Shown piece after piece: positions 7,886-38,548 of a stretch of DNA of 38,548 nucleotides. The stretch comes from Tannerella sp. (lineage in GTDB: Bacteria > Bacteroidota > Bacteroidia > Bacteroidales > Tannerellaceae): the NCBI GenBank assembly GCA_031265585.1, contig JAISCL010000159.1, positions 1 to 38,548 on the forward strand, read 5' to 3'. Below the pieces are notes generated by a model. It was not told the DNA's origin. It was given only the letters and a program-made list of their open reading frames with translations, and did no database searches. How positions within the stretch are numbered: the stretch's first letter is position 1; every line of letters begins with the position of its first letter. A program made the translations under genes and the position numbers.

Positions 7886-8137
7886 GTCCCGGACATGCTT
7901 CCAAAATGTGCTGAAAGTCCCGGCGAGGTCTCGGACATGCTTTCAGAACGTACTGAAAGTCCCAACGAGGTCTCAGGCAAGCTTTCAGAATATACTGAAA
8001 GTTCCGGCGAGGTCTCAGGCATATTTTCAGAATGTACTGAAAATTCCAGCGAAGTCTCAGGCATACTTTCAGAATATACTGAAAGCTCCGGCGAGGTCTC
8101 GGACATACTTTCAGCATGTATTGAAAGTCCGGCATGA
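7886..8137. repeat. Tandem array: six 42-bp units, each with a CTTTCAG-N6-CTGAAAG palindrome
   Basis: Six contiguous units start at 7886, 7928, 7970, 8012, 8054 and 8096, each exactly 42 bp. Units begin GTCTCGGACAT or GTCTCAGGCAT and end with a GGCGAG-like block. Each central unit has CTTTCAG, six bases, CTGAAAG; the outermost units have mutated arms. A partial unit precedes the array at about 7869-7882. Because 42 is a multiple of three and the unit lacks stops in several frames, long open frames exist on both strands. On the plus strand these give a 14-residue repeat such as VSGILSEYTESSGE, and on the minus strand a repeat around FQYILK. I do not call any of these a gene. There are no variable spacers, so it is not CRISPR. 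Confidence 0.9.
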
Positions 8138-8210
8138 ATCCTGAACGGGTGTTATATACGCTTTTATGACGTTTGTATATTCTCATGATTTAACTTTCGA
8201 GTATCCGCTG

Positions 8211-8218
8211 CAAATATA
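8211..8218 (-). promoter_or_regulatory. Possible minus-strand promoter reading into the 42-bp array
   Basis: On the minus strand TATATTTG fits the -7 consensus. A TTTG lies only 16 bp upstream (plus 8235-8238), shorter than usual. Transcription would run through the array toward the DUF6261 gene. An ATG at 8186 opens a 153-codon frame across the array, with no recognisable product. The AT-rich stretch 8219-8382 between here and the IS66 remnant shows nothing else. Confidence 0.45.
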
Positions 8219-8382
8219 GCAAAAAACTTCTATACAAAAAAAATGTTTTTCTATTTAAGATAAATTATTTGAGTTTTTTCAGGGAAATAAATTTTAACAT
8301 CCGGTTGTTTATTATCTTATTTATTTCAAAATTATGATATTTGGTGGTAATCAACAGGATGACCTGATAAATCATCAATTGG

Positions 8383-8556
8383 TCATACTCCATGTGCACC
8401 CGTACAACAGCGGTTAATGAAAATGACCACGCTGCCGCTACGAATATCTTTGCCCGCCACATCATGCACCAGTCCGCTCAGGGAACAGAAGTCACGCCGC
8501 ATATCGGCAGGACAGGGATACAGGTAATAGTTCATCGAAGGCGTCAGGTTCAGCAT
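8383..8556 (-). pseudogene. IS66 TnpB, truncated after 57 residues
   Basis: The minus strand from the ATG at 8556 encodes MLNLTPSMNYYLYPCPADMR, then FCSLSGLV and SGSVVIFINR. This matches the first half of the IS66 accessory protein TnpB (YLYPGPVDMRKGFDGLCGLV...FINRRRN type). After FINR it diverges and stops at 8383-8385, so about half of the normal ~115 residues are gone. It begins one base after the TnpA stop, the usual IS66 arrangement. The large TnpC transposase is absent, so this element cannot move by itself. Confidence 0.8.
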
Positions 8557-8557
8557 G

Positions 8558-8875
8558 TCAACGGGATTTTAACAGCGTAAGGATATCTTCCACGGTAATG
8601 TTCCCGCGCAAACGCAAGGTGGTTCCCTCCGGATAAGTGATCTCCAACCGGTTCTCCGTACCGGGTGAACCGGAAGATGGATAAGCCGGAGGATCAATGG
8701 ACAGAGACAGGAACCCATTGCTAACAAGTGGATGAGAAGACGAACAGATGCGTTTTTGCCGGTAATAAAATTTGCTTTGGGAAAGGCCTTCATTTGAGCA
8801 GAAGTCATTCACCGTTAAGCCCGATTCATGGTAGCGGGAGTAAATCTCTCCAAATCGTTTACGATCTAATTGCAT
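8558..8875 (-). CDS. IS66 family accessory protein TnpA
   Basis: The 105-residue protein has an N-terminal helix-turn-helix-like segment (FGEIYSRYHESGLTVNDFCS, then EGLSQSKFYYRQKR, residues about 7-43). A Ser/Pro-rich linker follows, then a C-terminal block (LEITYPEGTTLRLRG, then VEDILTLLKSR) typical of IS66 Orf1/TnpA. In functional IS66 elements it is needed for transposition together with TnpB and TnpC. The frame is intact but the rest of the element is not, so it is probably an orphan. Confidence 0.82.
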   Translation of the reverse strand: MQLDRKRFGEIYSRYHESGLTVNDFCSNEGLSQSKFYYRQKRICSSSHPLVSNGFLSLSIDPPAYPSSGSPGTENRLEITYPEGTTLRLRGNITVEDILTLLKSR

Positions 8876-9094
8876 AAATCAATCTCTTTATTTTAGGTAA
8901 AGGTACATACTACCGGCAAGCACTAAAAGACGGGATTTACCGAAGGGATACGTTATTTTGCCTCTACCCTAAATTAGGATGAAGGAAAAATAGTTATTTT
9001 GCCTTTTTCCCATCAGGATTCCGGCACAAAAGAAAAAAGCAAGTAGCATCCCCTCCTGTTGTTGGGTAATATATTTCCTTGATTGCCTCTTTTA
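8876..9094. other. IS66 flank and 3' end of the STAND gene: no gene seen
   Basis: This stretch holds the probable outer end of the IS66 remnant. A short direct repeat, GTTATTTTGCC, occurs at about 8950 and again at about 8992; it resembles a -7 element on the plus strand but leads into no open gene. No convincing terminator for the minus-strand gene was found. Confidence 0.4.
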
Positions 9095-12073
9095 TTATCT
9101 TCTGCGGGCAGCCAAAGCTTTCAGATAGTATTCCGAAGCTTTTGAATGGTTCCCCATAGATTCGTAAATGTATCCGATATTGCTGTGGAACATAGCGGTA
9201 GTAAAGTGGTCGGTTCCTAAAACACGTTCACAGATAGCTAAGGCTTTCAGAAGGTATTCCAGTGCTTTTGGATAGTCCCCCATAGACTTGTAAACGGACC
9301 CGATATTGTTGTAGAAAGTAGCGGTAGTAGGGTGGTCGGTTCCTACACGTTCACAGATAGCTAAGGCTTTCAGGTGGTATTCCAGTGCTTTTGGATAGTT
9401 CCCGATAGAATTGTAAGTGGATCCGATATTGTTGTAGGAATTAGCGGTATGCGAGTGTTCAGTACCTAAAACACGTTCATAGATAGCTATGGCTTTCAGA
9501 TAGAATTCCAATGCTTTTGGATAGTCCCTCATATAATCGTAAGCAAGACCGATATTGTTGTAAGAATTAGCGGTACGCGGGTGTCTATTTCCTAAAATGC
9601 GTTCACGGATATCCAAGGCTTTCAAATAGTATTCCAATGCTTTTGGGTATCCTTTCATGGAATTGTAAGCAAGACCGATATTGTTGTAAGAATTAGCGGT
9701 ATGCGGGTGTCTATTTCCTAAAACATGTTCACGGATAGCTAAGGCTTTCAAATGGTATTCCAATGCTTTTGGATAGTCCCTCATAGAATCGTAAGCAAGA
9801 CCGATATTGTTGTAGAAAGTAGCGGTAGTAGGGTGGTCGGTTCCTACACGTTCACAGATAGCTAAGGCTTTCAGATGGTATTCCAGTGCTTTTGGATAGT
9901 TTCCCATAGAATAGTAAGTGGTTCCGATACTGTTGTAGGAAGTAGCGGTATCAGGGTGGTTGGTTCCTAAAACACGTTCATTGATAGCCAAGTTTTTCAT
10001 CTTGTATTCCAACGCGAGCGAATCATCCCAGGATAATTCCCCAATAAAGTTTCCTATATTATTATACAACCCGGCAATATCTCTTTCTTCCCAGTTATTA
10101 GTCTTTAATTCTAAATACATTCTTAACTGATATTTCTCTTTATTTTCATTAATCAGTGCCCGCCAGTATTTGCCTAGTTCGTAGATGTCTTTATTATTAA
10201 TATAATCAAACACACCAAAATTGAGCAGGAAAGAATAAAGCCGTTCGTACCGGTGTGATTGGTGGAGTTGGTAGGGGAATTCGTCGTATATTCGACTGGA
10301 AGAATTTCCCTGCAACAATTCTTTTTCGCAATACGCTACGATGCGGTTGCGGTAGGTTTGTTCGTTCTGCGGGCTTAGGTATCGTTTCAGGATTGATTCT
10401 CTGAAATAACTGTGCGAAAAGGTAATCAATCCGTTTTTTACCGTTAGATGTGACGCTACGGCGTGGTATAGTTGAACCCAGTATAAGGGAGGGGCGCCGG
10501 TTAATTTCAATAGTTCGGTTTCGGAAAGCCCGGCGCGTGATACGGCAATCAGGGAGAAGACGTCTCCCACGAAATTGGTAATATCATTATAGTTATATGA
10601 CGATTCGATGCGAGTTAATACTTTATCGAAAAACAGGAGTATGCTGGCAGCCGAGAGGTAATCGTCTATCCGGTGGTCGATTTCCTCGTGTTCGCCGAAT
10701 ACTCGCAACTCATCCAATAGAGTACGGAGCACTAAGGTGTTTTCACATTCCTTATCCGAGGCAATGCGTTTTATCTGCACCGGCGACAGCGACTTGCCAT
10801 AGGATTTCAGATAAATGCGGATCAACTCTTCTCTTTTTTCCACATCCAGCGGTTGCAAAGTGAAAACGTCATATCCTCTTCGCTTGAAAACCGTCATGGT
10901 AGCATCGTTTGGGAGGGTGGAATAGATCACTTTTACGTTCTGCGGAAATGTTGGCAGCCAGGTCAGGAGCTTTGCATTGTCGCGCTCCGCTAATTGATTG
11001 ATGCCGTCTAAAATAATCAGCAAAGGTTCTTTAACAGCTATGGATAAAAGCAGTTTTTGCAGTTCTTCCTTTTGTTTGTCTGAGTCAACGGAGGGAGTGT
11101 TGCTAAGTGCCTCCAGTTCATCTTTTTTATCAAGTAGCTCATACATCCACTTGATTTCATTGATTAACCGCTGGGTAATCTTGCGGTAGTCTCCTTCCAA
11201 ACCGGAATTGCCTACGAAATGGTAGATTAATTTACCGTTCATTTTTCCTTCATTCGCAGTGATCCAGTTGGCAATCAAAGCGCTTTTGCCCATGCCGCTT
11301 GCGCCGGTTATCACCAAAGCGGACGAATCGTCTGTCATAAAATTGTTCAGTTGTCTATCGTTCTCCGGGTCAGGGATATAAACGCCTGTGCGGCTTTTCA
11401 GGAACGCTTTTTGCAGCAACCGCTCTCTTTCCACTTCCGATAACCGGCCCTGCGGAAAAAGGGCGTCTGTCATTTCTTTTAAATCCGCTTCTACCTGCCG
11501 GCCTAATTCTTCATTGGAAGTATAATTTCTCACCGGATATTTGTCCTGCGAGCCTATCTGTTCTTTTAACAAGTTCAGTTTGCTTTCTTCCTTGCTGCCT
11601 GCTTCCTCTTTAAAATCTTTGGGAACGACCACCCCGGGCGAACGCAGGTAGAAATAGGCGTTGGCGTCTCCGAAGTGCAATGCTCCGTATTGCATCTCAA
11701 TATCGGTAAAGCTCCGCCCGTCGGAAAGATAGGACTTTATCAACGAATACCGTTCCAGTATCTGTGGATTCTTAGTTATTTCTTCCGGCGATGGCATCGA
11801 GCCATACCGGTAACCTAACAAACCGATAAAGAAAGGGTGTGTATTGTCAATTTCCTGCAGGCAAATTTCCAATGCCTTGCCTTGCTTGGAGGCGTCTTCA
11901 CTGATTCCCCAACGCAAATCAAGTTCAATAAGCGTCACATCCCTTTCCTGACAATACCTTTTGAGCGTCGGGAATATTTTATCTACCAGATAATTCCGTT
12001 CCGACTGCATATCACGGAACGTGGAGGAAATAAAAATACGGATTTGTCTGTTTTCAATTAAATTTGTTTTCAT
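9095..12073 (-). CDS. DUF4062 - STAND NTPase - TPR protein (NLR-like)
   Basis: The 992-residue protein has three parts. Residues about 10-130 match DUF4062 (IRIFISSTFRDMQSERNYLV, LRWGISED, GLLGYRYG). About 235-560 form a P-loop NTPase of the STAND/NACHT type with Walker A GASGMGKS (257-264), Walker B LLIILDG (351-357) and a winged-helix-like part. About 665-990 are eight kinesin-light-chain-like TPR units of 41-42 residues (NNIG..Y.SMG.YPKALEYHLKALAI.ERVLG..HP.TA). This layout (effector or sensor front, switch ATPase, superhelical sensor tail) is that of animal nephrocystin-3 and of bacterial NLR-like proteins, some of which are anti-phage defences. A defence role here is inference. There is no signal peptide. 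It is AT-richer than its neighbours and lies between an IS66 and an IS1 remnant, which suggests transfer. The start ATG at 12073 directly precedes the DUF4062 motif. Confidence 0.85.
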   Translation of the reverse strand: MKTNLIENRQIRIFISSTFRDMQSERNYLVDKIFPTLKRYCQERDVTLIELDLRWGISEDASKQGKALEICLQEIDNTHPFFIGLLGYRYGSMPSPEEITKNPQILERYSLIKSYLSDGRSFTDIEMQYGALHFGDANAYFYLRSPGVVVPKDFKEEAGSKEESKLNLLKEQIGSQDKYPVRNYTSNEELGRQVEADLKEMTDALFPQGRLSEVERERLLQKAFLKSRTGVYIPDPENDRQLNNFMTDDSSALVITGASGMGKSALIANWITANEGKMNGKLIYHFVGNSGLEGDYRKITQRLINEIKWMYELLDKKDELEALSNTPSVDSDKQKEELQKLLLSIAVKEPLLIILDGINQLAERDNAKLLTWLPTFPQNVKVIYSTLPNDATMTVFKRRGYDVFTLQPLDVEKREELIRIYLKSYGKSLSPVQIKRIASDKECENTLVLRTLLDELRVFGEHEEIDHRIDDYLSAASILLFFDKVLTRIESSYNYNDITNFVGDVFSLIAVSRAGLSETELLKLTGAPPLYWVQLYHAVASHLTVKNGLITFSHSYFRESILKRYLSPQNEQTYRNRIVAYCEKELLQGNSSSRIYDEFPYQLHQSHRYERLYSFLLNFGVFDYINNKDIYELGKYWRALINENKEKYQLRMYLELKTNNWEERDIAGLYNNIGNFIGELSWDDSLALEYKMKNLAINERVLGTNHPDTATSYNSIGTTYYSMGNYPKALEYHLKALAICERVGTDHPTTATFYNNIGLAYDSMRDYPKALEYHLKALAIREHVLGNRHPHTANSYNNIGLAYNSMKGYPKALEYYLKALDIRERILGNRHPRTANSYNNIGLAYDYMRDYPKALEFYLKAIAIYERVLGTEHSHTANSYNNIGSTYNSIGNYPKALEYHLKALAICERVGTDHPTTATFYNNIGSVYKSMGDYPKALEYLLKALAICERVLGTDHFTTAMFHSNIGYIYESMGNHSKASEYYLKALAARRR
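9100..9990. repeat. In-gene TPR-coding DNA repeats, period 126 bp (123 bp in two units)
   Basis: The TPR region consists of nearly identical DNA units. The segments 9300-9373 and 9801-9874 are identical over 74 bases, and after one mismatch the identity continues for 26 more. They are 501 bp apart and share a one-codon deletion (ERVGTDHP instead of ERVLGTDHP) absent from the units between them. Confidence 0.85.
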
Positions 12074-12170
12074 TTTCGCCTATATTTTTAGTTAGTTTTT
12101 CGGGTGGGGATGTAAAAAGTATGCTGATATAAAAATTTAGAAATCAGACAAAAAAGAGTAATTTTATAAA

Positions 12171-12420
12171 ATGAAAATAACAATAACCCTCCATTTCTCC
12201 AATTGCCAAAGTACAAAGGTAAAGAAAAATGGTAAAAAAATATCAAAAAAGCAAAATTATTTATTCAAAGCATGTACCCGTCAATTTATTGGCGAACATG
12301 CGCTGAATTGCAAAGGTTGTCATTCATCCCTGACACAGAATGCCTGTCTGCGGTATAAGGGTCTGGGAGGTAGATGAATTTGAGAAAATCAGTATCAAAA
12401 AGGTGTTGTCGGGATGCACT
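12171..12420 (+). pseudogene. IS1-family InsA-like fragment, degraded
   Basis: From the ATG at 12171 the translation includes NCQSTKVKKNGKKISKKQNYL, then CTRQFIGEHALNCKGCHSSL, which is the zinc-ribbon front of IS1 InsA-type proteins found in Bacteroidetes. The first Cys pair is damaged (FSNC instead of a CPHC-like motif). After about residue 60 a frameshift leads to a stop at 12375-12377, while another frame continues with EFEKISIKKVLS, the expected next block. The fragment ends within a few bases of the prfC stop codon. There is no InsB/transposase part. It is a dead remnant bordering the STAND-gene island on the right. Confidence 0.72.
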
Positions 12421-13996
12421 AAAATTCCGAAGTGAAATGGAAACGGATGCCCGGGAAATCCTGCTGCGCCATTGTCAGGACGTAGGCCGAATCGGCTAAA
12501 TAGACATCGCGCCCTTCGCGATCCAAAGCCATGTATTGGGCCTTGCGCTTCCTGAAATTCTCGAAGGCGACAGGGTCATCGCTCTCTATCCAGCAGGCTT
12601 TATAAAGGCTGACGGGTTCCCAGCGGCACTGTGCGCCGTATTCGTTCAGCAGACGGTACTGAATTACCTCAAACTGCAACTGCCCGACCGTGCCGATGAT
12701 CCTGCGGCCATTGAACTGATTGAAAAATAGCTGCGCAACCCCTTCGTCCATCAGCTGGTCGATGCCCCTGTTCAGCTGTTTTGCCTTCATCGGGTCGGCA
12801 TTCTCTATGTACTTGAACATTTCCGGGGAAAAGCTCGGCAAGCCTTTAAAGTTCAGGTCTTCGCCGTCGGTCAGGCTGTCGCCTATCTTGAAATTGCCGG
12901 TATCGGGCAGGCCGACAATGTCGCCGGCAAAGGCTTCGTCGACGATTTCCTTCTTCTGGGCCATAAAAGCGGTAGGACTGCTGAAACGCATCATTTTACC
13001 GAAACGGACGTGCTTATAGTTCACATTCCGCTCAAAACGCCCCGAACAGATTTTCACAAAGGCAATGCAGCTGCGATGGTTCGGATCCATATTGGCATGT
13101 ATTTTGAATACAAATCCCGAAAAATGATTCTCCTCCGGTTCGACAATACGCTCTACAGCCTGTACCGGACGGGGTGACGGCGCAATATGCACAAAGCAGT
13201 CCAGCAATTCGCGCACTCCGAAATTGTTCAGCGCCGAACCGAAACAGACGGGAGCCACCTCGCCGCTCAGGTAGGTCTTCTCCTCAAACGCCGGATAGAC
13301 TCCGTTGATCAGTTCCACATCGGCGCGTAGTTTATCCGCCGGCTTTACATCAATATGATGTTCCAGTTCGGGACTGTTTATGTCCTTGAACTCGATACTC
13401 TCCGTTACCGTCTGTTTGCTCGGCATATACAGGTCAAGCTTCTGCTCGTAAAAATTGTAGACGCCCTTAAAGCGCTGCCCCATATCAATCGGCCAGCTCA
13501 GCGGACGCACCCTGATCTTCAGCTCGGCTTCAATTTCGTCCAGCAGGTCAAAGGGATCCTTCCCTTCCCTGTCCATTTTATTGACAAACACAATCACCGG
13601 CGTACGGCGCATCCGGCACACCTCCATGAGCCTTCGCGTCTGCGCCTCCACGCCCCTGGCCGCATCTATCACGATAATCACACTGTCTACCGCAGTCAGC
13701 GTACGGAACGTATCTTCCGCAAAGTCCCGGTGGCCGGGCGTATCCAGGATATTGACCTTATACCCCCTGTAGTCAAACGCCATGACGGACGTTGCAACCG
13801 ATATGCCGCGCTGTTTCTCTATTTCCATCCAGTCGGACGTGGCCGTGCGGCGGATCTTGTTGGACTTGACAGCTCCGGCGACATGGATCGCCCCGCCAAA
13901 CAGCAGCAGCTTTTCGGTCAAAGTGGTTTTACCCGCATCCGGATGACTGACAATCGCAAATGTACGGCGACGTTTTATTTCTTCAGATAAAGACAT
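12419..13996 (-). CDS. prfC: Peptide chain release factor 3
   Basis: RF3 is a translational GTPase that removes RF1/RF2 from the ribosome after peptide release. The 525-residue protein has G1 SHPDAGKTT (17-25), the G2 region with RGISVATSV (63-71), G3 DTPGH (85-89) and G4 NKMD (139-142). RF3-specific sequence includes [17 protein letters not shown]. The length fits the usual ~525-530. The start at 13996 lies inside the end of rfbD: the two genes overlap by 14 bases in different frames, so prfC is probably translated from the rfbD transcript. At its 3' end an IS1 remnant abuts the stop codon and no terminator hairpin is visible. Confidence 0.96.
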
Positions 13997-14867
13997 TTTC
14001 CTGTTGTTTAATCATTATATGATGCTGCAGGCACTTGCGCAGGCTTTCTTCCCACGGGGGCGTGATCACCCCGTATGTATCTCTTATTTTTGTTTTATCC
14101 AGTACGCTGTAAGCCGGGCGTACGGCGCGCGTGGGGTATCCGGCTGTCGCAAGCGGATCCACAGAACACTTCAGGCCTGCAATTTCAAAGATCCTGACGG
14201 CAAAGTCGTACCACGTGCAAACCCCTTCATCCGTATAGTGATAGATTCCGGGAACAAACGCGCCCGATGCGAGCACTTTCAGGATCGCATCCGCCAGATC
14301 TCCCGCATACGTGGGAGTACCCTGCTGGTCAGCTACCACGCCTACCCTGTCACGCTCCATCCCCAGACGCAGCATCGTCTTCATAAAGTTAGCGCCCGTT
14401 TCCGAATAAAGCCAGGCCGTGCGGATAATGACGGCATCCGGACATGCAGCCGTCAGCGCCTGCTCGCCGGCCAGCTTGGACTTTCCGTAGACGGAGACGG
14501 GATTTGTCGCATCTTCTTCACGGTACGGACGCGCACCCTTTCCGTCAAACACATAATCCGTAGATACGTGGATCACCCTGACGCCCAGCGATGCGGCAAC
14601 CTCCCCGATATTGCGCACGGCATCACAGTTAATGCGAATGCATCGCTCCGCATCATCTTCCGCTTTGTCTACCGCCGTGTATGCGGCGCAATTCACAACC
14701 GTATCAATCCCGGATGATTTGATATACGATTCGACAGCCGGCTTATCCAGTATGTCCAACGTATCAATATCCGTGAAATACAGCTTAAATCCCTCGAAAC
14801 ATTCGGAGCCGGCGCGTAAAGCCATCCCTAACTGCCCGTTCGCCCCGGTAATCAAGACTGAGTTCAT
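13983..14867 (-). CDS. rfbD: dTDP-4-dehydrorhamnose reductase
   Basis: RfbD (RmlD) uses NADPH to reduce dTDP-4-dehydro-L-rhamnose to dTDP-L-rhamnose, the last step of rhamnose donor synthesis for surface polysaccharides. The 294-residue protein is an extended short-chain dehydrogenase with the nucleotide-binding GANGQLG at 8-14, STDYVFDG at 102-109 and the catalytic Tyr127-x3-Lys131 (SVYGKSK). I chose the ATG at 14867 because [14 protein letters not shown] is the standard opening and the longer upstream frame runs into the -7 box at 14887-14894. The rest of the rhamnose pathway (rfbA, B, C) is not in the window. It is probably co-transcribed with prfC. Confidence 0.93.
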
Positions 14868-14886
14868 TCTTTTTATTTTTGGGGGA

Positions 14887-14894
14887 CAAAGATA
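14887..14894 (-). promoter_or_regulatory. -7 element of the rfbD-prfC transcript
   Basis: TATCTTTG on the minus strand lies 20 bases before the rfbD ATG. The nearest TTTG (plus CAAA at 14921-14924) is 26 bp upstream, longer than usual. It faces away from the identical box at 14908-14915. Confidence 0.6.
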
Positions 14895-14907
14895 GCGCAA
14901 ATATTTT

Positions 14908-14915
14908 TATCTTTG
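14908..14915 (+). promoter_or_regulatory. -7 element of the DUF4924 transcript
   Basis: TATCTTTG lies 20 bases before the ATG at 14935. A TTTG at 14878-14881 is 26 bp upstream. Together with 14887-14894 it forms a nearly symmetric back-to-back promoter pair whose -33 regions overlap the opposite promoter. Confidence 0.65.
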
Positions 14916-14934
14916 CGCGACAAAAGCAATTTTC

Positions 14935-15480
14935 ATGATTACAGCACGGCAAACAAAGAAAGAAAACATCGTCGAGTACCTGCTCTATATGTGGCAGGTA
15001 GAAGACCTTATACGCGCCTGCCATTTCAGCATGGACGAAATCGAATCCCGCATCATCTCCCAGTATGAGCAGCCCGAAGAAATAAAACGGGAAATACGCC
15101 AATGGTATCAGGAACTGATCGACATGATGCGCATCGAGGGAGTGAAGGAAACGGGACATATCCGGATAAACAAAAATGTAATGGCCGAACTGACGGATCT
15201 GCATCTGAGGTTATTAAAATCCCCGCAGGAAGCCGCCGTTTACGGCGCCCTCTATCAGAAGACGCTGCCCGCGATTGTGCAGCTGCGTTCCAAATCCGGA
15301 GGAAAGGAAGTAAGTGAAATTGAAACCTGCCTGACCGCCGTTTACGGGTATGTGCTGCTTAAAATGCAGCGAACGGAAATAAGTGCGGAAACAGGGGAGG
15401 CGATCCGGCAAATCAGCAATCTGCTGGCTTTCCTGGCAGCCGGATTCCGGGAAGAAAGGAACGGTACATGTTTAAACTGA
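14935..15480 (+). CDS. DUF4924 family protein
   Basis: This 181-residue soluble, largely helical protein begins MITARQTKKENIVEYLLYMW and contains QVEDLIRACHFSMDEIE and VYGALYQKTLPAIVQLRSKS. It matches the Bacteroidetes-specific DUF4924 family, which has no known function. There is no signal peptide or membrane segment. Its promoter -7 box lies at 14908-14915, divergent from rfbD. The last 13 bases overlap the start of the following metallo-hydrolase gene in another frame, so the two are probably translated from one mRNA. Confidence 0.8.
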   Translation: MITARQTKKENIVEYLLYMWQVEDLIRACHFSMDEIESRIISQYEQPEEIKREIRQWYQELIDMMRIEGVKETGHIRINKNVMAELTDLHLRLLKSPQEAAVYGALYQKTLPAIVQLRSKSGGKEVSEIETCLTAVYGYVLLKMQRTEISAETGEAIRQISNLLAFLAAGFREERNGTCLN

Positions 15481-16337: not shown

Positions 16338-16364
16338 AATTTTTATTGTAATTTTGGGAGTTTT

Positions 16365-25744: not shown

Positions 25745-25808
25745 AGATTTACGTCGTAAATGTTCGGAATTGGCTCCGGTTCTAAAGATTTACGTCGTAA
25801 ATGTTCGG
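25745..25808. repeat. Two units 41 bp apart, each with palindrome ATTTACGTCGTAAAT
   Basis: The 23-base block AGATTTACGTCGTAAATGTT plus CGG occurs at 25745-25767 and again at 25786-25808, an exact repeat with a 41-bp period. The rest of each unit is only loosely similar (GGAATTGG / GGGATCGG). Each block has arms ATTTACG and CGTAAAT around a single T. It lies between the small-RNA terminator and the -7 box of the next gene. Confidence 0.9.
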
Positions 25809-30240: not shown

Positions 30241-30421
30241 CATATGAGTAAAATCTGCTGTATATGAAGTGAAATCTGTGAGGCATTGGCTTACATGAGC
30301 CAAAATCCATGATCCGCAGGCTAAAGCCCATGACACGCAGGCTAAAACCCAACACCCGTGGGCTAATATAACCTGTAACACCCGGGCTAAAGCCTGCGGC
30401 ACATGAACCAAAACCCGTGGA
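30241..30421. repeat. Degenerate tandem array, about eight 21-bp units
   Basis: Units of 21 bp resemble CATGAGCTAAAATCCATGAC. Clear starts are at 30241, 30262, 30294, 30315, 30336, 30357 (24 bp), 30381 and 30402; about 11 extra bases lie before 30294. Several units contain GGCT...AGCC. Minus-strand frames across it show a 7-residue pattern (for example FSLRVMG), which is a by-product of the 21-bp period, so no gene is called. It lies 60 bases after mfd. Confidence 0.75.
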
Positions 30422-30861: not shown

Positions 30862-30893
30862 TTTGTTTTTTCTAATGGATTGATATAATTTTG
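30862..30893 (+). promoter_or_regulatory. Promoter of the first AraC-type regulator
   Basis: TTTG (30862-30865), 20 bp, TAATTTTG (30886-30893), 31 bases before the ATG at 30925. Confidence 0.8.
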
Positions 30894-30924
30894 CACGCTG
30901 TAAATAAATATTCAAAATGCGGTA

Positions 30925-31794
30925 ATGGATTTCCTGCTGTATCTTAATATGCTGATAATGCTTGTCCCTGTGATGGTTGCCGGTTGTTGCATGACGCTGG
31001 CAGGGATCTCGCGCAGGGATTGCCGGACGCGACAGGAAAGGCGGCTGAAGGACGTTGTGAACCTGTATCTGGCCACGACATTCCCGCTGTGGCTTGCGCT
31101 GTTCTGCCGTGTATTCTTTCCCGAAGCGTCTGTTATCATAAATATTTCCGGGCTTGCGGGCTTCGTGCCTGCTGTGGTGCTTTTTTGCCGCACCGTCCGC
31201 TTCTACCGCCAGGCAGGCGGCGAGGAGGGCCTGACGCGCCGACTGGCCTTCCGGATTATATTCATGGCGCTTCTTTCGCCGGCGTTCCTGTTTATGACCG
31301 TATTCACCGGCCTGCTGCCGGTAAGCGGCATCGGTTCGCCGGTATGGACGACGGTCACGGCTTTTTGCCTGTCGGGACAATGTATCGCGCTGACTTTCCA
31401 TATTATCCGCCGGGAATATCCGTCTCTTGCCGTATATGTAGCAGAGGAGGAGACGGAGAAAAGTGCGGAGGGACGCAGGCTGCATGAGGGTAAACTGACG
31501 CGCCGGCGGCTGGAGGCGTGGTTTCGCAAAAAAAAACCTTACCTCCGGGTGGATTTCAAAATTACCGACGCCGCGAAGGCAATGGATGTGAACCGTTCCG
31601 TTATCTCCGCTTTTATCAACAAAAATTACGGCATGAACTTCAACCGCTTTGTGAACCGGTGGCGGCTGGAGGAACTTGAACGCCTGCGCCTCCTGCCTTC
31701 CAACAAAGGGAAAAGCATTGCCCAGCTGTTTGCCAAAGCCGGATTTACGGAAGCGCGCCAGTATCGCCGCGCTGTCGCGAACGGACGGGGATGA
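30925..31794 (+). CDS. Membrane-anchored AraC-family regulator 1
   Basis: The 289-residue protein has an N-terminal half of about six hydrophobic segments (residues about 3-25, 45-62, 70-90, 108-130, 138-155). A C-terminal AraC-type DNA-binding region follows (about 190-285: ITDAAKAMDVNRSVISAFIN, then YGMNFNRFVNRWRLEELERL, then AKAGFTEARQYRRAV). Bacteroidetes have many such integral-membrane AraC proteins, and the segment FIN.EYGMNF is typical. It resembles the next gene in layout and motifs, so the pair likely arose by duplication. Together with the following regulator it may control the TonB receptor operon downstream; this is inferred from position. It has its own promoter at 30862-30893. 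Confidence 0.82.
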   Translation: MDFLLYLNMLIMLVPVMVAGCCMTLAGISRRDCRTRQERRLKDVVNLYLATTFPLWLALFCRVFFPEASVIINISGLAGFVPAVVLFCRTVRFYRQAGGEEGLTRRLAFRIIFMALLSPAFLFMTVFTGLLPVSGIGSPVWTTVTAFCLSGQCIALTFHIIRREYPSLAVYVAEEETEKSAEGRRLHEGKLTRRRLEAWFRKKKPYLRVDFKITDAAKAMDVNRSVISAFINKNYGMNFNRFVNRWRLEELERLRLLPSNKGKSIAQLFAKAGFTEARQYRRAVANGRG

Positions 31795-31894
31795 AAGCGG
31801 TTTAAGAGTTGAAAGTGAGTATTTACAATTTTGAATTAAAGACTGATGTTACGCAGTACAGTAGAGATAAAATTTTACAGATAAATTATAAAAT

Positions 31895-33004
31895 ATGATA
31901 AGCAAAGAATTTATACAGGCACTGGTGTTTTCCACGCCTGCCGTCTGTGCGCTGGCGTGTATGGCCATGATGCTGCTCGACGTATTATACACTGAAAAAA
32001 TCCGTCATGAAAAGTCGCTGCGGCTTTTCCTGGCGCTTACTTTTATGGTTGCGGCTATACTGTGGCTGTGCCTGGTGCTTCAGGTGATCAACCACCGGGC
32101 GTTTGTCCGGTGTTTCACCCTGTTCACGCTTGCATTGATGCTTGATCAGGTTTTGATTTTCCGCTTTGTGCACATTATAACGGCTACGGAGCGTGGAAGC
32201 GGTTTCAGCCGGCTGCATTTTGTTATACCCGTCCTGCTGACGGCCGCTTCGACAGCGATCACCCTGACCGTCCCCATCGACCGGCAAATAGAAGTGGTAT
32301 ATGGCAACGGAGAGGGCAACCGCCTGTTCGCCGTGCTAAATTCGCTGACGAGCATCGTTTTTGTCATATACAACATACTTTATCCCCTTCTCGGCATCTT
32401 ACGGATACGCCGCTACAGGCGCAATGTTACGGACTATTCCGCCGACGTGCAGCGCACATCCCTGAACTGGCTCCTGCTTATGCAGCTGCTTACGCTCATT
32501 ACGATCCCCCTTCCAATCGCCGGTTTGCTGCTGAACATCGACGTTTTCTCCTCCTCTTCCTGGCTTTCCACCCAGGGTGCACTCCCTACCTTCTTCGTTT
32601 ACCCCATACTGTGCTACAACCTGCTATCGGACAACTACGTCATCATCGCCCCTGCACACGACAACGTCCCCGCACCGGGCAACACCTTCGTAATCGACCC
32701 GAATCGCTTCTCCCAATACCTGCAGGACAAAAAACCGTACCTGAATCCGCGACTGCGCATCACGGACGTAGCCGCCGACCTGTGCACCAACCGCAATTAC
32801 GTATCCACGTTCATCAACAAAGAGTACGGAATGAATTTCAGCCGCGTCATCAACCGCTGCCGCCTGGAAGAACTCGCCCGCCTGCACCTCCTGCCCACCC
32901 ACAAAAACAATTCCAATACCGAACTCATACTCTCTGCCGGCTTCAGCAGCTACCGCAATTATTTACGCGTGAAAAGCAGTGAAGACAGATTAGTTGAAAG
33001 TTGA
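31895..33004 (+). CDS. Membrane-anchored AraC-family regulator 2
   Basis: The 369-residue protein has about seven hydrophobic segments in residues 10-250 and a C-terminal AraC helix-turn-helix region (about 265-360: ITDVAADLCTNRNYVSTFIN, then YGMNFSRVINRCRLEELARL, then LSAGFSSYRNYLRV). It is longer than its neighbour in the membrane part. The layout suggests a sensor that binds DNA from the membrane; ligand unknown. It starts 100 bases after regulator 1, with no clear separate promoter, so the two may be co-transcribed. The stop codon lies within a copy of the AGTTGAAAGTTGAAAAT repeat. The TonB receptor starts 138 bases downstream. Confidence 0.85.
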   Translation: MISKEFIQALVFSTPAVCALACMAMMLLDVLYTEKIRHEKSLRLFLALTFMVAAILWLCLVLQVINHRAFVRCFTLFTLALMLDQVLIFRFVHIITATERGSGFSRLHFVIPVLLTAASTAITLTVPIDRQIEVVYGNGEGNRLFAVLNSLTSIVFVIYNILYPLLGILRIRRYRRNVTDYSADVQRTSLNWLLLMQLLTLITIPLPIAGLLLNIDVFSSSSWLSTQGALPTFFVYPILCYNLLSDNYVIIAPAHDNVPAPGNTFVIDPNRFSQYLQDKKPYLNPRLRITDVAADLCTNRNYVSTFINKEYGMNFSRVINRCRLEELARLHLLPTHKNNSNTELILSAGFSSYRNYLRVKSSEDRLVES

Positions 33005-33008
33005 AAAT
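32992..33008. repeat. Copy of the AGTTGAAAGTTGAAAAT repeat
   Basis: The repeat supplies the last codons and stop of regulator 2. It is identical to the copy at 24538-24557. Confidence 0.75.
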
Positions 33009-33063
33009 CCGGCCATATCCCAATTAATAATTAGGAACCGGAAAAAAATACCTAAAAATAAGG

Positions 33064-33095
33064 ATTGCCCATTAATTCCGAAGGATCTACCTTTG
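33064..33095 (+). promoter_or_regulatory. Promoter of the TonB-receptor operon
   Basis: ATTG (33064-33067), 20 bp, TACCTTTG (33088-33095), 47 bases before the ATG at 33143. The -33 differs from TTTG by one base. Confidence 0.7.
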
Positions 33096-33142
33096 CAGGC
33101 GATTTATTCTTGCAAAATAACATATCCTAACTGATTTTTTTG

Positions 33143-35515
33143 ATGAAAAAAGCAATTCTTATTTATATATTCCTTTTCTCTTTGACCGCTTATTCACAGG
33201 TCCGTGTAAACATATCCGGGAAAGTGACTTCTACGGAAGACGAAACGTTGAGTTATGGAACCGTCTTACTGAAGGGCACTTCTTTTGGAGGAGCGACAAC
33301 TGCTGACGGAGAATATTCGTTTGATGCGCCGGCAGGCGAGTATACATTAGTTACCTCTTTTCTCGGATACGAAACGTATCAAAAGAAGATAAAACTGGTA
33401 GCCGGGAAAAACGAGCGGCTGAATATTGTGATCGCTCCCAAAGTATCGGAGCTGGATGAGGTCGTTGTTATCGGCAGCAATATAAAGCGGATAAAAGAAT
33501 CGGCATTCAATGTGGTAGCGCTGGACGTGAAAGGGCTGCACAACACGGCGGCCGAAATCAAGGACGCCCTGGCCAAAGCGCCGGGCGTAAAGGTACGGGA
33601 GTCGGGAGGCGTCGGGTCTGATATAAACTTTTCATTAGACGGGTTTAGCGGACGGCATGTCCAGTTTTTCCTTGACGGCATTCCTTTAGACACCCGTAAT
33701 TCATCCTTTAACATCAGCAACATTCCGGTTAATTTTGCCGAACGCATTGAAGTTTACAAAGGCGTCGTCCCGGTGGAATTTGGAGCCGATGCGCTGGGAG
33801 GCGTTGTCAACATTGTCACCGGCAGGAATAAAGAGCGGACGCTGGCGGATGCTTCCTATTCGTACGGGTCGTTCAATACACATAAAACGTCCGTCCTGGT
33901 AAATCACACAACGAAGCGCGGATTTACGATGGAACTGAATGTCTTTCAAAACTATTCGGATAATAACTATGCTACATACACCCCGGTAGAAGACTTGGGA
34001 AACGGACAGATTGATAAGAGCAAAACCGAAAAAGTGAAACGTTTCAATGACACTTACCATAACGAGGCTGTTATAGCGAAAGCGGGTTTTGTCAATAAAT
34101 CCTTTGCCGACCGCCTGCTCTTCGGCGCCAATTTATCACAGAGCGATAAGGAAATCCAGAACGGCGTCCGCCAGGAAATCGTTTACGGGCAGAGACGCCG
34201 GAAGGCAACCTCCTTCATGCCTTCCATTGAATACTTCAAAAGAAATCTGTTCACAAAAGGGCTGAACGCCTCCCTGACCGCCAATTACAATTACAGCCGG
34301 ACGCATACGCTGGATACGGCCACATATAAATACAACTGGCGCGGAGAATCGGTTTACAATGGCGGAAAACTGGGAGAACAAAGCTATCAGAACACTAAAA
34401 ACGACAATAAAAACGGGAATGTGACGGCAAACCTGAATTACCGGATCGGCGAAGCGCACAAGATTGTACTGAACCATGTACTGACGGTCTTCGACCGCAA
34501 AAACAACAGCCGTTCGGAGACACAGACACAAAACGGAATTGCCAATAAATCGCGTAAAAACATTACCGGGCTTTCTTACCAGTACAACCACGAAAACAGA
34601 TGGAACGTCTCATTCCTGGGAAAATACTACAACCAGTACAACTCGGGGCCGCAAAACCTGTCTTCCGACCCAACGCGGTTCGACTATGTAAAAGCCGGCC
34701 ACCATACCGACGCCTTCGGTTACGGCGCAGTGGCCTCCCTTTTCCTGTTAAAAGACATCCAGCTGAAAGGCTCGTATGAAAAAACGCTCCGGCTTCCGAC
34801 CAACGATGAACTTTTTGGAGACGAAGACCTTGAACTGGGAAAGCTGGAATTGAAACCGGAACACAGCGACAACCTGAACTTCAACGTAAATTACGGATAT
34901 AACAGGAACAGGCACGGGATCTACCTGGAAGCCGGCCTGATCTACCGCAATACCACCGATTATATTCGCCGCGTAACAAACCGCTACTCGGGAGGACTCT
35001 ATTTCGGCTCCTACGAAAATCACGGCAACGTAGTCACCAAAGGCATCAGTGCGGAACTGCGGTACAACTATTCGAACCGGCTCTCGATCGGAGGAAACCT
35101 GACACACCAGAATATCCGCAACAACGAGCGATACATAAACGGCTACGAAGGCAGGGAAAGCTCCACATACAAACAGCGTATGCCGAATACTCCCTACTTC
35201 TTCTTCAACACCGATGCAACCGTCTATTTCCATAACCTGGCAGGAAAAGGAAATGTACTGACCGTAACTTATTTCCACACATACGTCCACGAATTTTCAC
35301 TTTACTGGGAAAACGAGGGAAGCAGCACCTCCAAGCTAAAAGTCCCGGAACAGTTTTCGCACGATATAACCATCAACTACAGCCTGAAAAACGGACGGTA
35401 TAACCTGTCGTTCGAATGCCGGAACCTGACGGACGAAAGACTGTACGACAATTTCAGCCTGCAGAAAGCAGGACGGGCCTTTTACGGAAAGATCCGCTAT
35501 ACCTTCGGCAACTAA
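33143..35515 (+). CDS. TonB-dependent outer-membrane receptor (XusA-like)
   Basis: These beta-barrel receptors bring large ligands such as siderophores, haem or vitamins across the outer membrane using TonB energy. The 790-residue protein has a signal peptide (MKKAILIYIFLFSLTAYSQ). A carboxypeptidase-regulatory-like domain (about 23-105) contains ISGKVTSTEDETLSYGTVLL and FLGYETYQKKI. The plug (about 110-235) contains DALAKAPGVKVRESGG, GFSGRHVQFFLDGIPLD and EFGADALGGVVNIVTG. The barrel ends in IRYTFGN. A leading TTG three bases before the ATG is ignored. With the DUF4374 gene after it, the pair resembles Bacteroides XusA/XusB, which bind foreign siderophores. The substrate here is inferred, not shown. 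It is likely iron-regulated, but no Fur box was identified. Confidence 0.85.
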   Translation: MKKAILIYIFLFSLTAYSQVRVNISGKVTSTEDETLSYGTVLLKGTSFGGATTADGEYSFDAPAGEYTLVTSFLGYETYQKKIKLVAGKNERLNIVIAPKVSELDEVVVIGSNIKRIKESAFNVVALDVKGLHNTAAEIKDALAKAPGVKVRESGGVGSDINFSLDGFSGRHVQFFLDGIPLDTRNSSFNISNIPVNFAERIEVYKGVVPVEFGADALGGVVNIVTGRNKERTLADASYSYGSFNTHKTSVLVNHTTKRGFTMELNVFQNYSDNNYATYTPVEDLGNGQIDKSKTEKVKRFNDTYHNEAVIAKAGFVNKSFADRLLFGANLSQSDKEIQNGVRQEIVYGQRRRKATSFMPSIEYFKRNLFTKGLNASLTANYNYSRTHTLDTATYKYNWRGESVYNGGKLGEQSYQNTKNDNKNGNVTANLNYRIGEAHKIVLNHVLTVFDRKNNSRSETQTQNGIANKSRKNITGLSYQYNHENRWNVSFLGKYYNQYNSGPQNLSSDPTRFDYVKAGHHTDAFGYGAVASLFLLKDIQLKGSYEKTLRLPTNDELFGDEDLELGKLELKPEHSDNLNFNVNYGYNRNRHGIYLEAGLIYRNTTDYIRRVTNRYSGGLYFGSYENHGNVVTKGISAELRYNYSNRLSIGGNLTHQNIRNNERYINGYEGRESSTYKQRMPNTPYFFFNTDATVYFHNLAGKGNVLTVTYFHTYVHEFSLYWENEGSSTSKLKVPEQFSHDITINYSLKNGRYNLSFECRNLTDERLYDNFSLQKAGRAFYGKIRYTFGN

Positions 35516-35542
35516 CTAACCAATCATATAATTTTAAACAAA

Positions 35543-36961
35543 ATGAAACAGAAAAATTTACTATGGATTTTAATAGCCTTTGCATGCGCAGGCTTTTTTA
35601 CGGCATGTAGTGACAACGCTTCAGGCGACGGCGACGACGACGGCAACGGCCCGGAAGACCGTATCGAAAAATATATCATAGCAGCATCCGGCGCGGAAGC
35701 GATCTATCTACTGGAAACCGACAACATCGACGAAGGCACCCTCACAACACAGGGCGCAGCCGCAGAAGTAGAAGCGGCAACCGCCTGGCTGTTCCCCCAA
35801 AACAAATACGCCTACCGCCTGGTATATGCACAGGGCAACGCAGGAACAGGCTCCTCCTACAAGCTTGACCAAAGCGGGCGCCTGGCAGAGCGTGAAATTG
35901 CATTCAGCATCACCGACCGCTTCACGACCTACGGAATCTACGGGGACTACATCATCTGCGCCGCATCAGGCGCAACGGCCCAGTACGACGCTGCGGACAC
36001 GGAAAAATCCTATCCCCGCTACGGCGTAACATTTACGTACCTGAACATAGAAGAACAGACAAAGCAAACCAAAACAATCATAACCGAAGACCTCATGGGC
36101 ACCGGCGAACGTTACACGGTATCCGGCATCGTAGAATCCAACGGGAAATTCTTCACGGCGCTCTGCTCGGAGGGATACAGCCCGTACGGCGTCTGGCAAA
36201 ACCACGATGCGATTGTAGAAAAGCTAACCGCCGCAGGCGAAGACGTAGACGCCACGGTCAAAAAAACGGAAGCAGGACTCTACGCCAGCATCGGATCCAC
36301 CATGTATCCCAACCAGGTAGCAGTAGCCATCTACGAAGGAACCGGCTTCGAAAACCCGCTAATCATCACCGACGACCGCCTGAGCATGGCAACCTCCCTT
36401 TTCCGCTCACAATACTATTCAACCATTGGCGTGACGGACAACGGCGATGTATACGTATTCTCCGCGAACAACACCGGAGCAAGGGCCGGAATCTACAAAT
36501 CCGACAAGCCGTCGGGAGCCATCCGCATCAAATCCGGCACAACCGTCTTCGACCCGGCCTATTTCTGCGACATAACGGCGCTCTCGGGCGGGCACAGCCT
36601 GTTCAAAGTATGGCATATCTCCGAAAACTACTTCCTGCTGCAAATGTTTGCCGTTCCGGGATTCTATACAAGCGGCATGAACCAGAACACAAACCGCCTG
36701 GCGATCCTGAAAGCCGACAGCAAAGAATTCCGCTGGGTAACGGGAATGCCTTCCGACAACACCATCAGCAGCCTGGGATCCTCCCCCTACTTCGAAAACG
36801 GAAAAGCATACATGCCCGTCGTCTTCAGCGCCGCATCCGAAGGAGGCGTTGCCGACTCCCCTGCCGTTTATACCGTCAACGCAGCCACGGCCACCGCCAC
36901 GAAAGGCCTCATCATAAAAGCCGACAACGGAGTCAGCGCCATCGGGAAACTGCACAATTAA
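35543..36961 (+). CDS. DUF4374 surface lipoprotein (XusB-like)
   Basis: The 472-residue protein has a lipoprotein signal ending at Cys22 (GFFTAC). The cysteine is followed by SDNASGDGDDDGN, an acidic stretch like the lipoprotein export signal that moves Bacteroidetes lipoproteins to the cell surface. The body has repeated beta strands (for example FTAL..., GVTDNGDVYVFSANNTG) consistent with a beta-propeller. DUF4374 includes XusB of Bacteroides thetaiotaomicron, which binds ferric siderophores for its partner TonB receptor. The gene lies 27 bases after the receptor gene and 31 before the reductase-like gene, so all three probably form an operon. Confidence 0.85.
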   Translation: MKQKNLLWILIAFACAGFFTACSDNASGDGDDDGNGPEDRIEKYIIAASGAEAIYLLETDNIDEGTLTTQGAAAEVEAATAWLFPQNKYAYRLVYAQGNAGTGSSYKLDQSGRLAEREIAFSITDRFTTYGIYGDYIICAASGATAQYDAADTEKSYPRYGVTFTYLNIEEQTKQTKTIITEDLMGTGERYTVSGIVESNGKFFTALCSEGYSPYGVWQNHDAIVEKLTAAGEDVDATVKKTEAGLYASIGSTMYPNQVAVAIYEGTGFENPLIITDDRLSMATSLFRSQYYSTIGVTDNGDVYVFSANNTGARAGIYKSDKPSGAIRIKSGTTVFDPAYFCDITALSGGHSLFKVWHISENYFLLQMFAVPGFYTSGMNQNTNRLAILKADSKEFRWVTGMPSDNTISSLGSSPYFENGKAYMPVVFSAASEGGVADSPAVYTVNAATATATKGLIIKADNGVSAIGKLHN

Positions 36962-36992
36962 AAACGCTCACCGCCTAAAAAAAACATATCGC

Positions 36993-38012
36993 ATGATTAA
37001 AGTACTCATCGACCTGCTGTCCTTCCTGAGGACAACATTCCCCCTGCTCTTTTGCACCGCCGTTCTCGCGCTGCTCTCCATCCTGCTGGCAAAATCCATA
37101 AAGAAGTATTACTACATCTATTACACCCTCTTTGCCATACCGTTCCTGATGGTTGTCATACCCTCCATCCTCCGGATGTGCGGACTCGAAACATCCCTCA
37201 ACTTCAACCGGATCCCGGTCCTGGGCGAAATCCTCCGCGACTACATACACGTAGCCGCCCTGGGGCATCCGCTGCTGATCATCATCATGTACATAGGTGC
37301 GCTCAACGCCTCCAACCCGCACGTAAAGAAACTGATGAGCATCCGCAAAGAACTCTCCATCCTGTCCGGATTCCCGATCCTGACCCACTCCTGGATCCGC
37401 ACCCTGCACAATTTCCCGGAATCCCTCAAATACTTCACCGCCCACGCCGAATTTATCGAAAACCGGGAAATCACAAATGCATGGGGCGCCGGCATTACCC
37501 ACGCGGCGCTGGTACTTGGCATCGTGATGCTCGCCCTGTTCCTCATCCTGTGGATCATATCATTCGACGCCCTGCACAAGCGCCTGGGCGGACGCAAATG
37601 GAAACAGATACAAAAATGGTCGTATGTCCTTTACGCCCTGCTCTTCATCCACGCAATGGGCCTGCAGGCCGGACGCATGGTGACCGGCAGCGCATCCGGC
37701 CCCCGCACGGAAATAACAGCTCATGCACCGGCTGCCGGAAATATCCCGGACAGCCGCGACGGCGAGCGCCGGCAGGAAAACGCTGCCGCCCCTGCCGCCC
37801 GCAGAGGAGAAGACCGGAACGCACAGGCCGCTCCCCGGGGACACGGCGGCGGCGGCGGCGGACGCACCCCCGCGATAAGCCTCGCCGACATCCAGCCGGG
37901 CCAAGCCGCAAGACAGTGGATCGCCGTCTCCTCACTCCTGCTGATATACGGATCCTACCTCATCCTCCGCATACGGAAAGCAAGGAAAAAACCCGCACAT
38001 CGCCCTCAATAA
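36993..38012 (+). CDS. Ferric-reductase-like transmembrane protein
   Basis: The 339-residue protein has six predicted membrane helices (about 9-29, 38-58, 81-101, 166-190, 205-227 and 308-325). The sequence KRLGGRKWKQIQKWSYVLYA, with histidines near HVAALGHP, THAALV and FIHAMG, matches haem-binding ferric-reductase/YedZ-like membrane domains. Between the fifth and last helices, residues about 230-305 form a Pro/Ala/Arg/Gly-rich, low-complexity insert (including APAARRGEDRN and GHGGGGGG), GC-richer than its surroundings. In the known Xus system the third gene encodes a PepSY-type membrane protein; here a reductase-like protein occupies that place. Its likely job is to reduce siderophore-bound iron in the periplasm (inference). 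No separate FAD domain is present. Confidence 0.75.
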   Translation: MIKVLIDLLSFLRTTFPLLFCTAVLALLSILLAKSIKKYYYIYYTLFAIPFLMVVIPSILRMCGLETSLNFNRIPVLGEILRDYIHVAALGHPLLIIIMYIGALNASNPHVKKLMSIRKELSILSGFPILTHSWIRTLHNFPESLKYFTAHAEFIENREITNAWGAGITHAALVLGIVMLALFLILWIISFDALHKRLGGRKWKQIQKWSYVLYALLFIHAMGLQAGRMVTGSASGPRTEITAHAPAAGNIPDSRDGERRQENAAAPAARRGEDRNAQAAPRGHGGGGGGRTPAISLADIQPGQAARQWIAVSSLLLIYGSYLILRIRKARKKPAHRPQ

Positions 38013-38037
38013 CCGGTGTCACGCGCCGGGCCGGGTT

Positions 38038-38065
38038 GTAGAGACGCGATGCATCGCGTCTCTAC
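38038..38065. repeat. Dispersed palindrome, copy 2 (arms GTAGAGACGCGA)
   Basis: A perfect 28-bp palindrome: arm GTAGAGACGCGA, centre TGCA, arm TCGCGTCTCTAC. It lies 25 bases after the ferric-reductase-like gene. Copy 1 at 22951-22978 has the same arms with GGCA between them. Confidence 0.92.
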
Positions 38066-38101
38066 GGCAGACGTCCGCCCCGGCAACAGGCACAGGAAAC
38101 C

Positions 38102-38147
38102 CGGCAGGGCTGCACGGCGACCGGAAATCCGGCACGCAGCCCTGCCG
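38102..38147 (+). terminator. Nested hairpin after the Xus-like operon
   Basis: CGGCAGGGCTGC (38102-38113) pairs exactly with GCAGCCCTGCCG (38136-38147). CCGGA-AA-TCCGG (38121-38132) is nested inside. No T-run follows, so transcript stabilisation or pausing is more likely than classic termination. Confidence 0.55.
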
Positions 38148-38203
38148 CAAATGTGAAATAAACATAAATATTCCCGGATTATCCATATTTATAAAAAAAA
38201 CAT

Positions 38204-38211
38204 TACCTTTG
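38204..38211 (+). promoter_or_regulatory. -7 promoter element before the terminal array
   Basis: TACCTTTG fits the consensus. No proper -33 TTTG is seen. It lies 35 bases before an ATG at 38247. Confidence 0.5.
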
Positions 38212-38246
38212 CACACATATTCTGTAACTTAAGCACGGGTAATACA

Positions 38247-38548
38247 ATGAACACATGCAGCCATAAGGCAAATCACTCTCTCGGACAGGCGGAATCACCG
38301 GATCCCGGCGCACAGCCGCGCGGAAACGGCACGGCAGATCAGTTCCCCGGCGTTAGCGCTACCCCCCTCCCCCATCACATAAGCAACTTACGCACATACG
38401 GCAGGCAGTCGCCGGACGCTCCGGAAAGTCACTGTCTGCTGTCAGTCCGTTCCCGGAAGTTCCGGGAAGCCACTGTCTGCTGTCAGTCCGTTCCCGGAAG
38501 TTCCGGGAAGCCACTGTCTGCTGTCAGTCTGTTCCCGGAAGTTCCGGG
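38247..38548 (+). CDS. Possible partial ORF running through the 41-bp array
   Basis: The frame from the ATG at 38247 stays open for 100 codons to the window edge, starting MNTCSHKANHSLGQAESPDP. It has a -7-like element upstream, but the residues do not resemble any protein I know. From 38426 it runs through a 41-bp repeat, which because of its length is read in a different frame in each unit, so the protein would not repeat. I consider a chance open frame at least as likely as a real gene; the end lies outside the window. Confidence 0.2.
   Translation, partial: MNTCSHKANHSLGQAESPDPGAQPRGNGTADQFPGVSATPLPHHISNLRTYGRQSPDAPESHCLLSVRSRKFREATVCCQSVPGSSGKPLSAVSLFPEVP
38426..38548. repeat. Tandem array: three 41-bp units with palindrome CCCGGAAGTTCCGGG (continues beyond window)
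   Basis: Units at 38426-38466, 38467-38507 and 38508-38548 begin AAGYCACTGTCTGCTGTCAG and are almost identical. Each ends with the 15-bp palindrome CCCGGAAGTTCCGGG. A degenerate unit precedes them (GCCGGACGCTCCGGA, 38411-38425). The window cuts the array exactly at a unit boundary. There are no spacers. Confidence 0.92.

Follow-up and report, generated by a model that had tools for sequence, protein, structure and literature searches.

Four short tandem arrays with periods of 42, 41, 21, and 41 bp lie in separate gaps between genes of one stretch of Bacteroidales DNA, and the question they raise is what kind of element keeps its period so closely while its sequence differs from one array to the next. 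The window, that is, the whole stretch analyzed (38,548 nucleotides), is the entire contig C160 of a draft Tannerella-like genome (4,876,742 bases in 383 contigs; 91% complete), whose Mfd protein has as its closest named relatives the proteins of two Tannerella MAGs (83% and 82% identity). The original prediction held that the arrays share no primary sequence, that their behavior is not that of a single transposing repeat, and that they could represent a genome-wide class in which the period is the conserved property.

Each array is present where it had been placed (Table 1). Over the coordinates of the original prediction, autocorrelation peaks at a lag of 42 for array 1 (identity 0.80), 41 for array 2 (identity 1.00), 21 for array 3 (identity 0.48), and 41 for array 4 (identity 0.98), each peak exceeding those of all 1000 composition shuffles, and the palindromes named for the arrays are found in them. 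The predicted copy numbers hold for arrays 1 and 4 but not for the other two: array 2, called as two copies, is 64 bp long and comprises one unit followed by an exact 23-base second copy and is unlisted by TRF at a score of 40, and array 3, called as about eight copies, does not contain eight clean copies, TRF detecting its core only, with 2.4–2.5 copies. The contig ends within array 4, whose right side lies outside the sequence.

Table 1. Tandem arrays of the window and elements bounded by family A ends.
Feature	Contig	Coordinates or size	Composition
Array 1	C160 (window)	7885..8130	TRF 42 bp x 5.9; palindrome CTTTCAG-N6-CTGAAAG in each unit
Array 2	C160 (window)	25745..25808	41-bp unit, about 1.6 copies; palindrome ATTTACGTCGTAAAT and half-unit common to family B arrays
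Array 3	C160 (window)	30241..30421	Degenerate array of 21-bp units with GGGCTAAAGCCC-like palindromes; TRF core 30302-30366
Array 4	C160 (window)	38412..38548	Family A unit with a pair of dyads separated by half a period; TRF 41 bp x 3.3
Family A element	C374	211 bp	Encloses 41 bp x 2.3
Family A element	C59	336 bp	Encloses 41 bp x 6
Family A element	C69 (L324)	194 bp	Encloses 21 bp x 6.2
Family A elements, four		55-290 bp	Without array

The absence of shared sequence is confirmed among the four arrays but does not extend to the genome: array 4 belongs to a dispersed family (family A), array 2 has a half-unit in common with another (family B), and array 3 has a sibling on C124 that is 74% alike and likewise built of 21-bp units (5.7 copies). 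Array 1 is single-copy, having no other genomic match better than E 0.5 and thus no relative found in the genome, and its reading frames are open on both strands, so that a coding origin is conceivable for this array. Immediately to its left, at 7739–7788, is an inverted repeat of 21 bp, 90% complementary and with a loop of 8 nt, perhaps a terminator. Array 2 is missing from the two nearest relatives (L032 and L033), and the gap before the sugar-nucleotide gene at its site is, by ORF calls, 459 bp here versus 171 and 183 bp there.

A CRISPR array was rejected, since family A repeats the entire 41-bp unit, including the part between the palindromes, and has no unique spacers. A known structured RNA was rejected, since Rfam at gathering thresholds yields nothing but a tRNA in the window, and a coding origin was rejected for the 41-bp units, which cannot hold a reading frame. 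Coding repeats are found separately. The 992-residue ORF at 9095–12073 of the window (minus strand) carries TPR-like repeats of about 126 bp (TRF 9110–10012), a coding tandem array unlike arrays 1–4, and an apparent RNA pseudouridine synthase (2860–4323) has, at its start, repeats rich in glycine, tyrosine, and asparagine (3376–3455). Elsewhere in the genome, long coding arrays comprise 102-bp TPR-like repeats on C59 (L159, 11894–17364) and 99-bp repeats, which we take to be ankyrin-like, on C312 (L201, 242–1285).

Periods were tabulated in 80 contigs of the same genome taken at regular steps and blind to repeats (906,515 bases); contigs chosen by similarity to arrays 2 and 4 were excluded from these unbiased counts. 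The noncoding arrays with a period of at least 18 comprise one at 18, one at 20, ten at 21, five at 23, one at 24, two at 41, two at 42, one at 62, and one at 102, that is, 17 at 20–24, four at 41–42, and none at 25–40, coding status being assigned by a crude longest-ORF caller that labelled two clear class members as coding (L163 and L235) and under which one 42-bp array counted as noncoding (L082) may be coding. The second commonest period in this genome is 23. These counts support a genome-wide class of noncoding repeat arrays with periods clustered at 20–24 and 41–42, in agreement with the original prediction, which a broad spread of periods would have contradicted.

Wider samples give the same two clusters. 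Twenty same-genus stretches (272,585 bases) contain 14 noncoding arrays at 20–24 and none at 25–42, and 80 Bacteroidota loci around mfd (1,407,291 bases) contain 26 at 20–24, seven at 25–40, five at 41–42, and two at 43–60. With the three samples pooled, there are 57 noncoding arrays at 20–24, seven at 25–40, nine at 41–42, and two at 43–60; the rate at 25–40 predicts 0.9 arrays at 41–42 versus the nine observed (Poisson p ~4e-7). Among these nine, the units of L191 and L201 are alike (score 14.5; null maximum 12) and those of L076 and L201 are borderline (12.0), and with alike pairs counted once (n = 7) the excess has p ~3e-5, calculated by hand. Shuffled sequence (481,250 bases) yields no arrays. 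In five stretches of E. coli K-12 (250,000 bases), noncoding arrays number three, of which one has a period of 20 and another a period of 21, so the shorter period class may not be specific to Bacteroidota.

Most 41–42-bp units are dyad-symmetric over their whole length. Two tests were applied to arrays with a TRF score of at least 80 and at least 2.4 copies, as was the folding analysis described below. The first compares a unit's best palindrome with shuffles of that unit; at p ≤ 0.05 it is passed by 19 of 28 noncoding arrays at periods 40–43 and by 14 of 35 at 18–25, and, among coding arrays, by one of two and none of ten, respectively. The second fits one reflection axis over the circular unit, which entails two dyads exactly half a period apart; at p ≤ 0.05 it is passed by 23 of 28 noncoding arrays at 40–43 and 11 of 34 at 20–25, and by two of two coding arrays at 40–43 (both of which look misclassified) and none of ten at 20–25. 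The palindromic units foreseen in the original prediction are thus borne out, and the outcome that would have refuted them, palindromes no commoner than in shuffles, did not occur, although units of 21–24 bp often have no palindrome.

Many of the 28 noncoding arrays at 40–43 are search-picked copies of one family, and the symmetry was therefore also counted by family. Merging of related units by eye gives 13 families, nine of which pass the whole-unit test: seven of the eight in this genome, the exception being array 1 (whole-unit p = 0.077; best palindrome p = 0.010), and two of the five elsewhere. Single linkage at a loose threshold reduces the 28 arrays to seven clusters, with passing units in three. 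The four noncoding 41–42-bp arrays of the unbiased contigs all pass the whole-unit test and one of the four passes the single-palindrome test, whereas none of the five same-genus arrays tested passes either. Array 4 itself has whole-unit symmetry at p = 0.005.

The claim that the arrays are not a transposing repeat is contradicted by the family of array 4 and by the relatives of array 2, which are dispersed in small elements with terminal inverted repeats. Family A matches 16 contigs of the genome at E ≤ 1e-4 and is matched in one of 36 other same-genus genomes. The flanks of many copies are alike over about 23–70 bp beside the array, and the ends read approximately TATACT..GCGCGG.ATGGTTTTGTGCAT. 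A 22-base pattern of these ends has 67 matches at ≤3 mismatches, versus 0 for a reversed control; inward-facing pairs, sought in 30 of the 67 match loci, number seven distinct ones (Table 1), and a looser scan adds one further pair without an array, on C240. The same ends enclose a 41-bp array, a 21-bp array, or no array. In the enclosed 21-bp array on C69, two 21-bp variants alternate, which suggests a route from a 21-bp to a 42-bp unit. Any target duplication would be consistent with TA, and no autonomous partner element was found for family A. Separately, 41-bp arrays lie at contig ends in C374 (L158, 1–507), C86 (L152, 8532–8736), and C160 (array 4), and such arrays may be one cause of broken assemblies in this draft genome.

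Paired positions of the family A unit change together. We read 76 units from 15 arrays, keeping those that match the reference at 21 or more of the 41 positions. Pair 7–13 occurs as G–C, C–G, and A–T, and pair 24–37 as C–G and A–T. Two-sided changes number 54 across 15 pairs and 65 distinct units, whereas 300 shuffles average 30.7 and never exceed 40, a comparison that overstates the covariation because related units are not independent; with partners slid, the number falls to 13–29. Correspondingly, 76% of cells pair, versus 68% when shuffled and 14–37% when slid. Paired change is expected under a selected structure and also under template switching without selection, a process that can create and repair hairpins (PMC8794818). 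The two halves of a unit also turn over: the arrays on C67, C59, and C239 retain TTCCCGGAAGTTCCGGGAA and have the other half altered. Likewise, array 2 keeps a family B half-unit joined to a different partner half. In both families, halves are replaced separately at constant length.

The 22-bp half-unit of array 2 is common to arrays on C318, C311, C282, and C241, at 41-bp spacing, and array 2 also has a match on C44. Family B ends are 25 bp long and resemble GGCTAATTCTTTTTTTGAGGTGCTA. The elements on C282, C311, and C365 are about 340–380 bp long and have 41-bp arrays inside and 8-bp target duplications (read by eye); an element on C239 with the same ends is 134 bp long and has neither array nor target duplication; and L225 has a family B tail but a different 41-bp unit. 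A 1502-bp element on C214 has family B ends and encodes a DDE_Tnp_ISL3 protein (E = 3e-41); its second frame has no Pfam match, and it stops at the contig end, so that its own target duplication is not readable. Target duplications of 8 bp are typical of ISL3. Family B is thus like ISL3 in its 25-bp ends, common to the C214 element, and in its 8-bp duplications, but unlike an ISL3 insertion sequence in that its miniatures hold a 41-bp array where the transposase would be. The matching ends indicate miniature elements whose partner would be an ISL3-type transposase.

Terminal repeats reach only part of the class. No terminal inverted repeat was found in either flank of arrays 1–3, or on the left of array 4, the right flank of which lies beyond the contig end. 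When 90 arrays were screened in general for inverted ends lying no more than 160 bp away, the outcome (TRF score of at least 60, as in the proximity and gene-orientation comparisons) was p ≤ 0.05 for five of 29 arrays at 40–43 and for three of 55 at 18–25, the latter being the chance level. Two of these three look convincing: a 22-bp array in Tannerellaceae (L044), with ends that begin GAGACCTTAC / GAGACCTTACC..., and a 21-bp array (L041), with ends ...ACGTGAGTCCGATATAA...; both sets of ends are similar to those given for BrickBuilt and MITE239 in PMC4596501. The strongest pair, perfect 32-bp inverted repeats, surrounds a 38-bp array at a Prevotella locus (L089, 135–254 plus flanks), indicating that such elements are not limited to the two period classes. 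Of the 21 unbiased noncoding arrays (18–25 or 40–43 bp), one is close to an end of family A or B, compared with ten of 27 hit-chosen arrays and 97 of 4000 random segments. Transposition accordingly accounts for the spread of some families and not for the whole class.

The closest known systems are in Porphyromonas gingivalis. Specifically, BrickBuilt is a MITE with 23-nt tandem repeats at 19 intergenic sites, many copies of which lack one or both ends (Klein and colleagues, PMC4596501), and MITE464/PgRS is a small element with 41-nt tandem direct repeats, terminal inverted repeats, and many intergenic copies; the two have almost identical ends, and repeats of 41, 23, and 22 nt had been noted earlier in P. 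gingivalis W83 (PMC4596501). The portions of that paper on BrickBuilt and PgRS report matches in P. gingivalis and P. gulae only and state no general period rule. The open-licence literature yielded nothing on a common period or on symmetry of the entire unit, and PMC4596501 is the only direct precedent in it. Compared by period, ends, and host, families A and B are like PgRS in carrying 41-bp tandem arrays in small elements with terminal inverted repeats, but have other terminal repeats and another host family. As in BrickBuilt and PgRS, one end type carries two periods (41 and 21 in family A); unlike the IS5-type ends of BrickBuilt (GAGACC...; PMC4596501), those of families A and B are of other kinds. 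In the window, the intergenic periods correspond to the 22–23 or 41 nt of these elements, array 1 being 42 bp and array 3 being 21 bp, and ends are present on family A and B copies elsewhere in the genome and on none of arrays 1–3. By this analogy, the arrays would be MITE-borne minisatellites, in close parallel to BrickBuilt (23 nt) and PgRS (41 nt). REP, REPIN, and BIME elements, which go with RAYT transposases, are likewise short palindromes that lie between genes in many copies (PMC3733652, PMC3116915) but differ from the entire tandem arrays of fixed period seen here; an origin from them seems unlikely, the 91% complete genome giving one partial Y1_Tnp (RAYT) match (positions 61–121 of 121) in a 74-residue open frame.

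We consider it probable that the arrays belong to a class of intergenic minisatellites that is common among Bacteroidales and is in part borne by MITEs and spread by transposase. The unit would be about 20–24 or 41–42 bp long and often an imperfect palindrome, and at least two 41-bp families (A and B) would form the cores of miniature inverted-repeat elements copied genome-wide by transposase. Hairpin-forming units would change in number by slippage or unequal exchange, the palindrome would be renewed by template switching between its arms or retained by selection, and arrays 1–3, together with many arrays without visible ends, may be members of this kind that persist as relics or were amplified locally. 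This explanation draws on the period clustering, the dyads, the family A covariation, the dispersal, the terminal inverted repeats, the family B duplications, and the P. gingivalis precedent presented above; the window copies without terminal repeats, the lack of ends at most unbiased arrays, the chance-level result for inverted ends at 18–25 bp, the failure to find an autonomous partner for family A, and the five same-genus arrays without symmetry run counter to it.

An explanation that we regard as unlikely is that the arrays are helically phased DNA sites, in which dyads one or two turns apart would present a dimeric or architectural protein with one face of the DNA, selection would keep spacing and symmetry, and mobility would be incidental. 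The peaks of this genome at 21 and 41–42, between which there is a gap near 31, the two dyads exactly half a period apart, and the covariation of paired positions in family A are all as such sites would have them. However, the sequence differs from family to family, as the sites of a sequence-specific protein would not, and the phasing put forward in the original prediction suits 21, 41, and 42, which fit whole turns, better than 23, which is common yet off phase. By gene context, nine of 21 placed 40–43-bp arrays lie in divergent gaps, versus 47 of 205 gaps overall, an excess that is only mild, and arrays of 20–25 bp show nothing clear (five divergent, 11 tandem, two convergent, and three at an edge).

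We do not favor arrays of RNA hairpins, transcribed with one hairpin per unit and acting on transcript stability, termination, or a protein, an explanation that is possible but more doubtful still. Many 41-mers do fold as one low-energy, unit-spanning hairpin (mean best z -3.10 for the 28 noncoding arrays at 40–43 bp), one strand shows a strong gain in some units (L191, with three G–T versus no A–C mismatches), and BrickBuilt segments have promoter activity (PMC4596501). Against this, wobble-type mismatches are divided between the strands across arrays and favor neither, orientation relative to genes is not fixed, and the only Rfam match in the window is the tRNA. That the arrays are ordinary minisatellites without any rule, clustered through sampling, related families, or the repeat finder, is highly improbable: E. 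coli K-12 also has one array each at 20 and 21 among its three in 250 kb, and the loose clusters of 40–43-bp arrays with symmetry number only three of seven, but nine noncoding arrays at 41–42 against seven over the sixteen periods 25–40 (significant also with alike pairs counted once), the empty shuffled sequence, and the independent occurrence of periods 22, 23, and 41 in P. gingivalis (PMC4596501) all argue for a rule.

For the minisatellites themselves, our guess is that unit length is fixed by dyad axes one (21 bp) or two (41–42 bp) helical turns apart, a spacing that would explain both peaks and the gap between them, with 23 off phase. More broadly, and tentatively, Bacteroidales may follow a sequence-independent rule, with periods of two or four turns, dyad axes separated by one or two turns, and paired turnover of sequence, in which the geometry is what is maintained. 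If true, either a shared protein or the replication machinery would keep the geometry, which would have been captured again and again by different transposable elements. Both period classes of P. gingivalis recur in other Bacteroidales with other sequences and other transposon ends, and dyad symmetry persists as the unit sequence changes, so that the control of minisatellite length in bacteria becomes a testable question.
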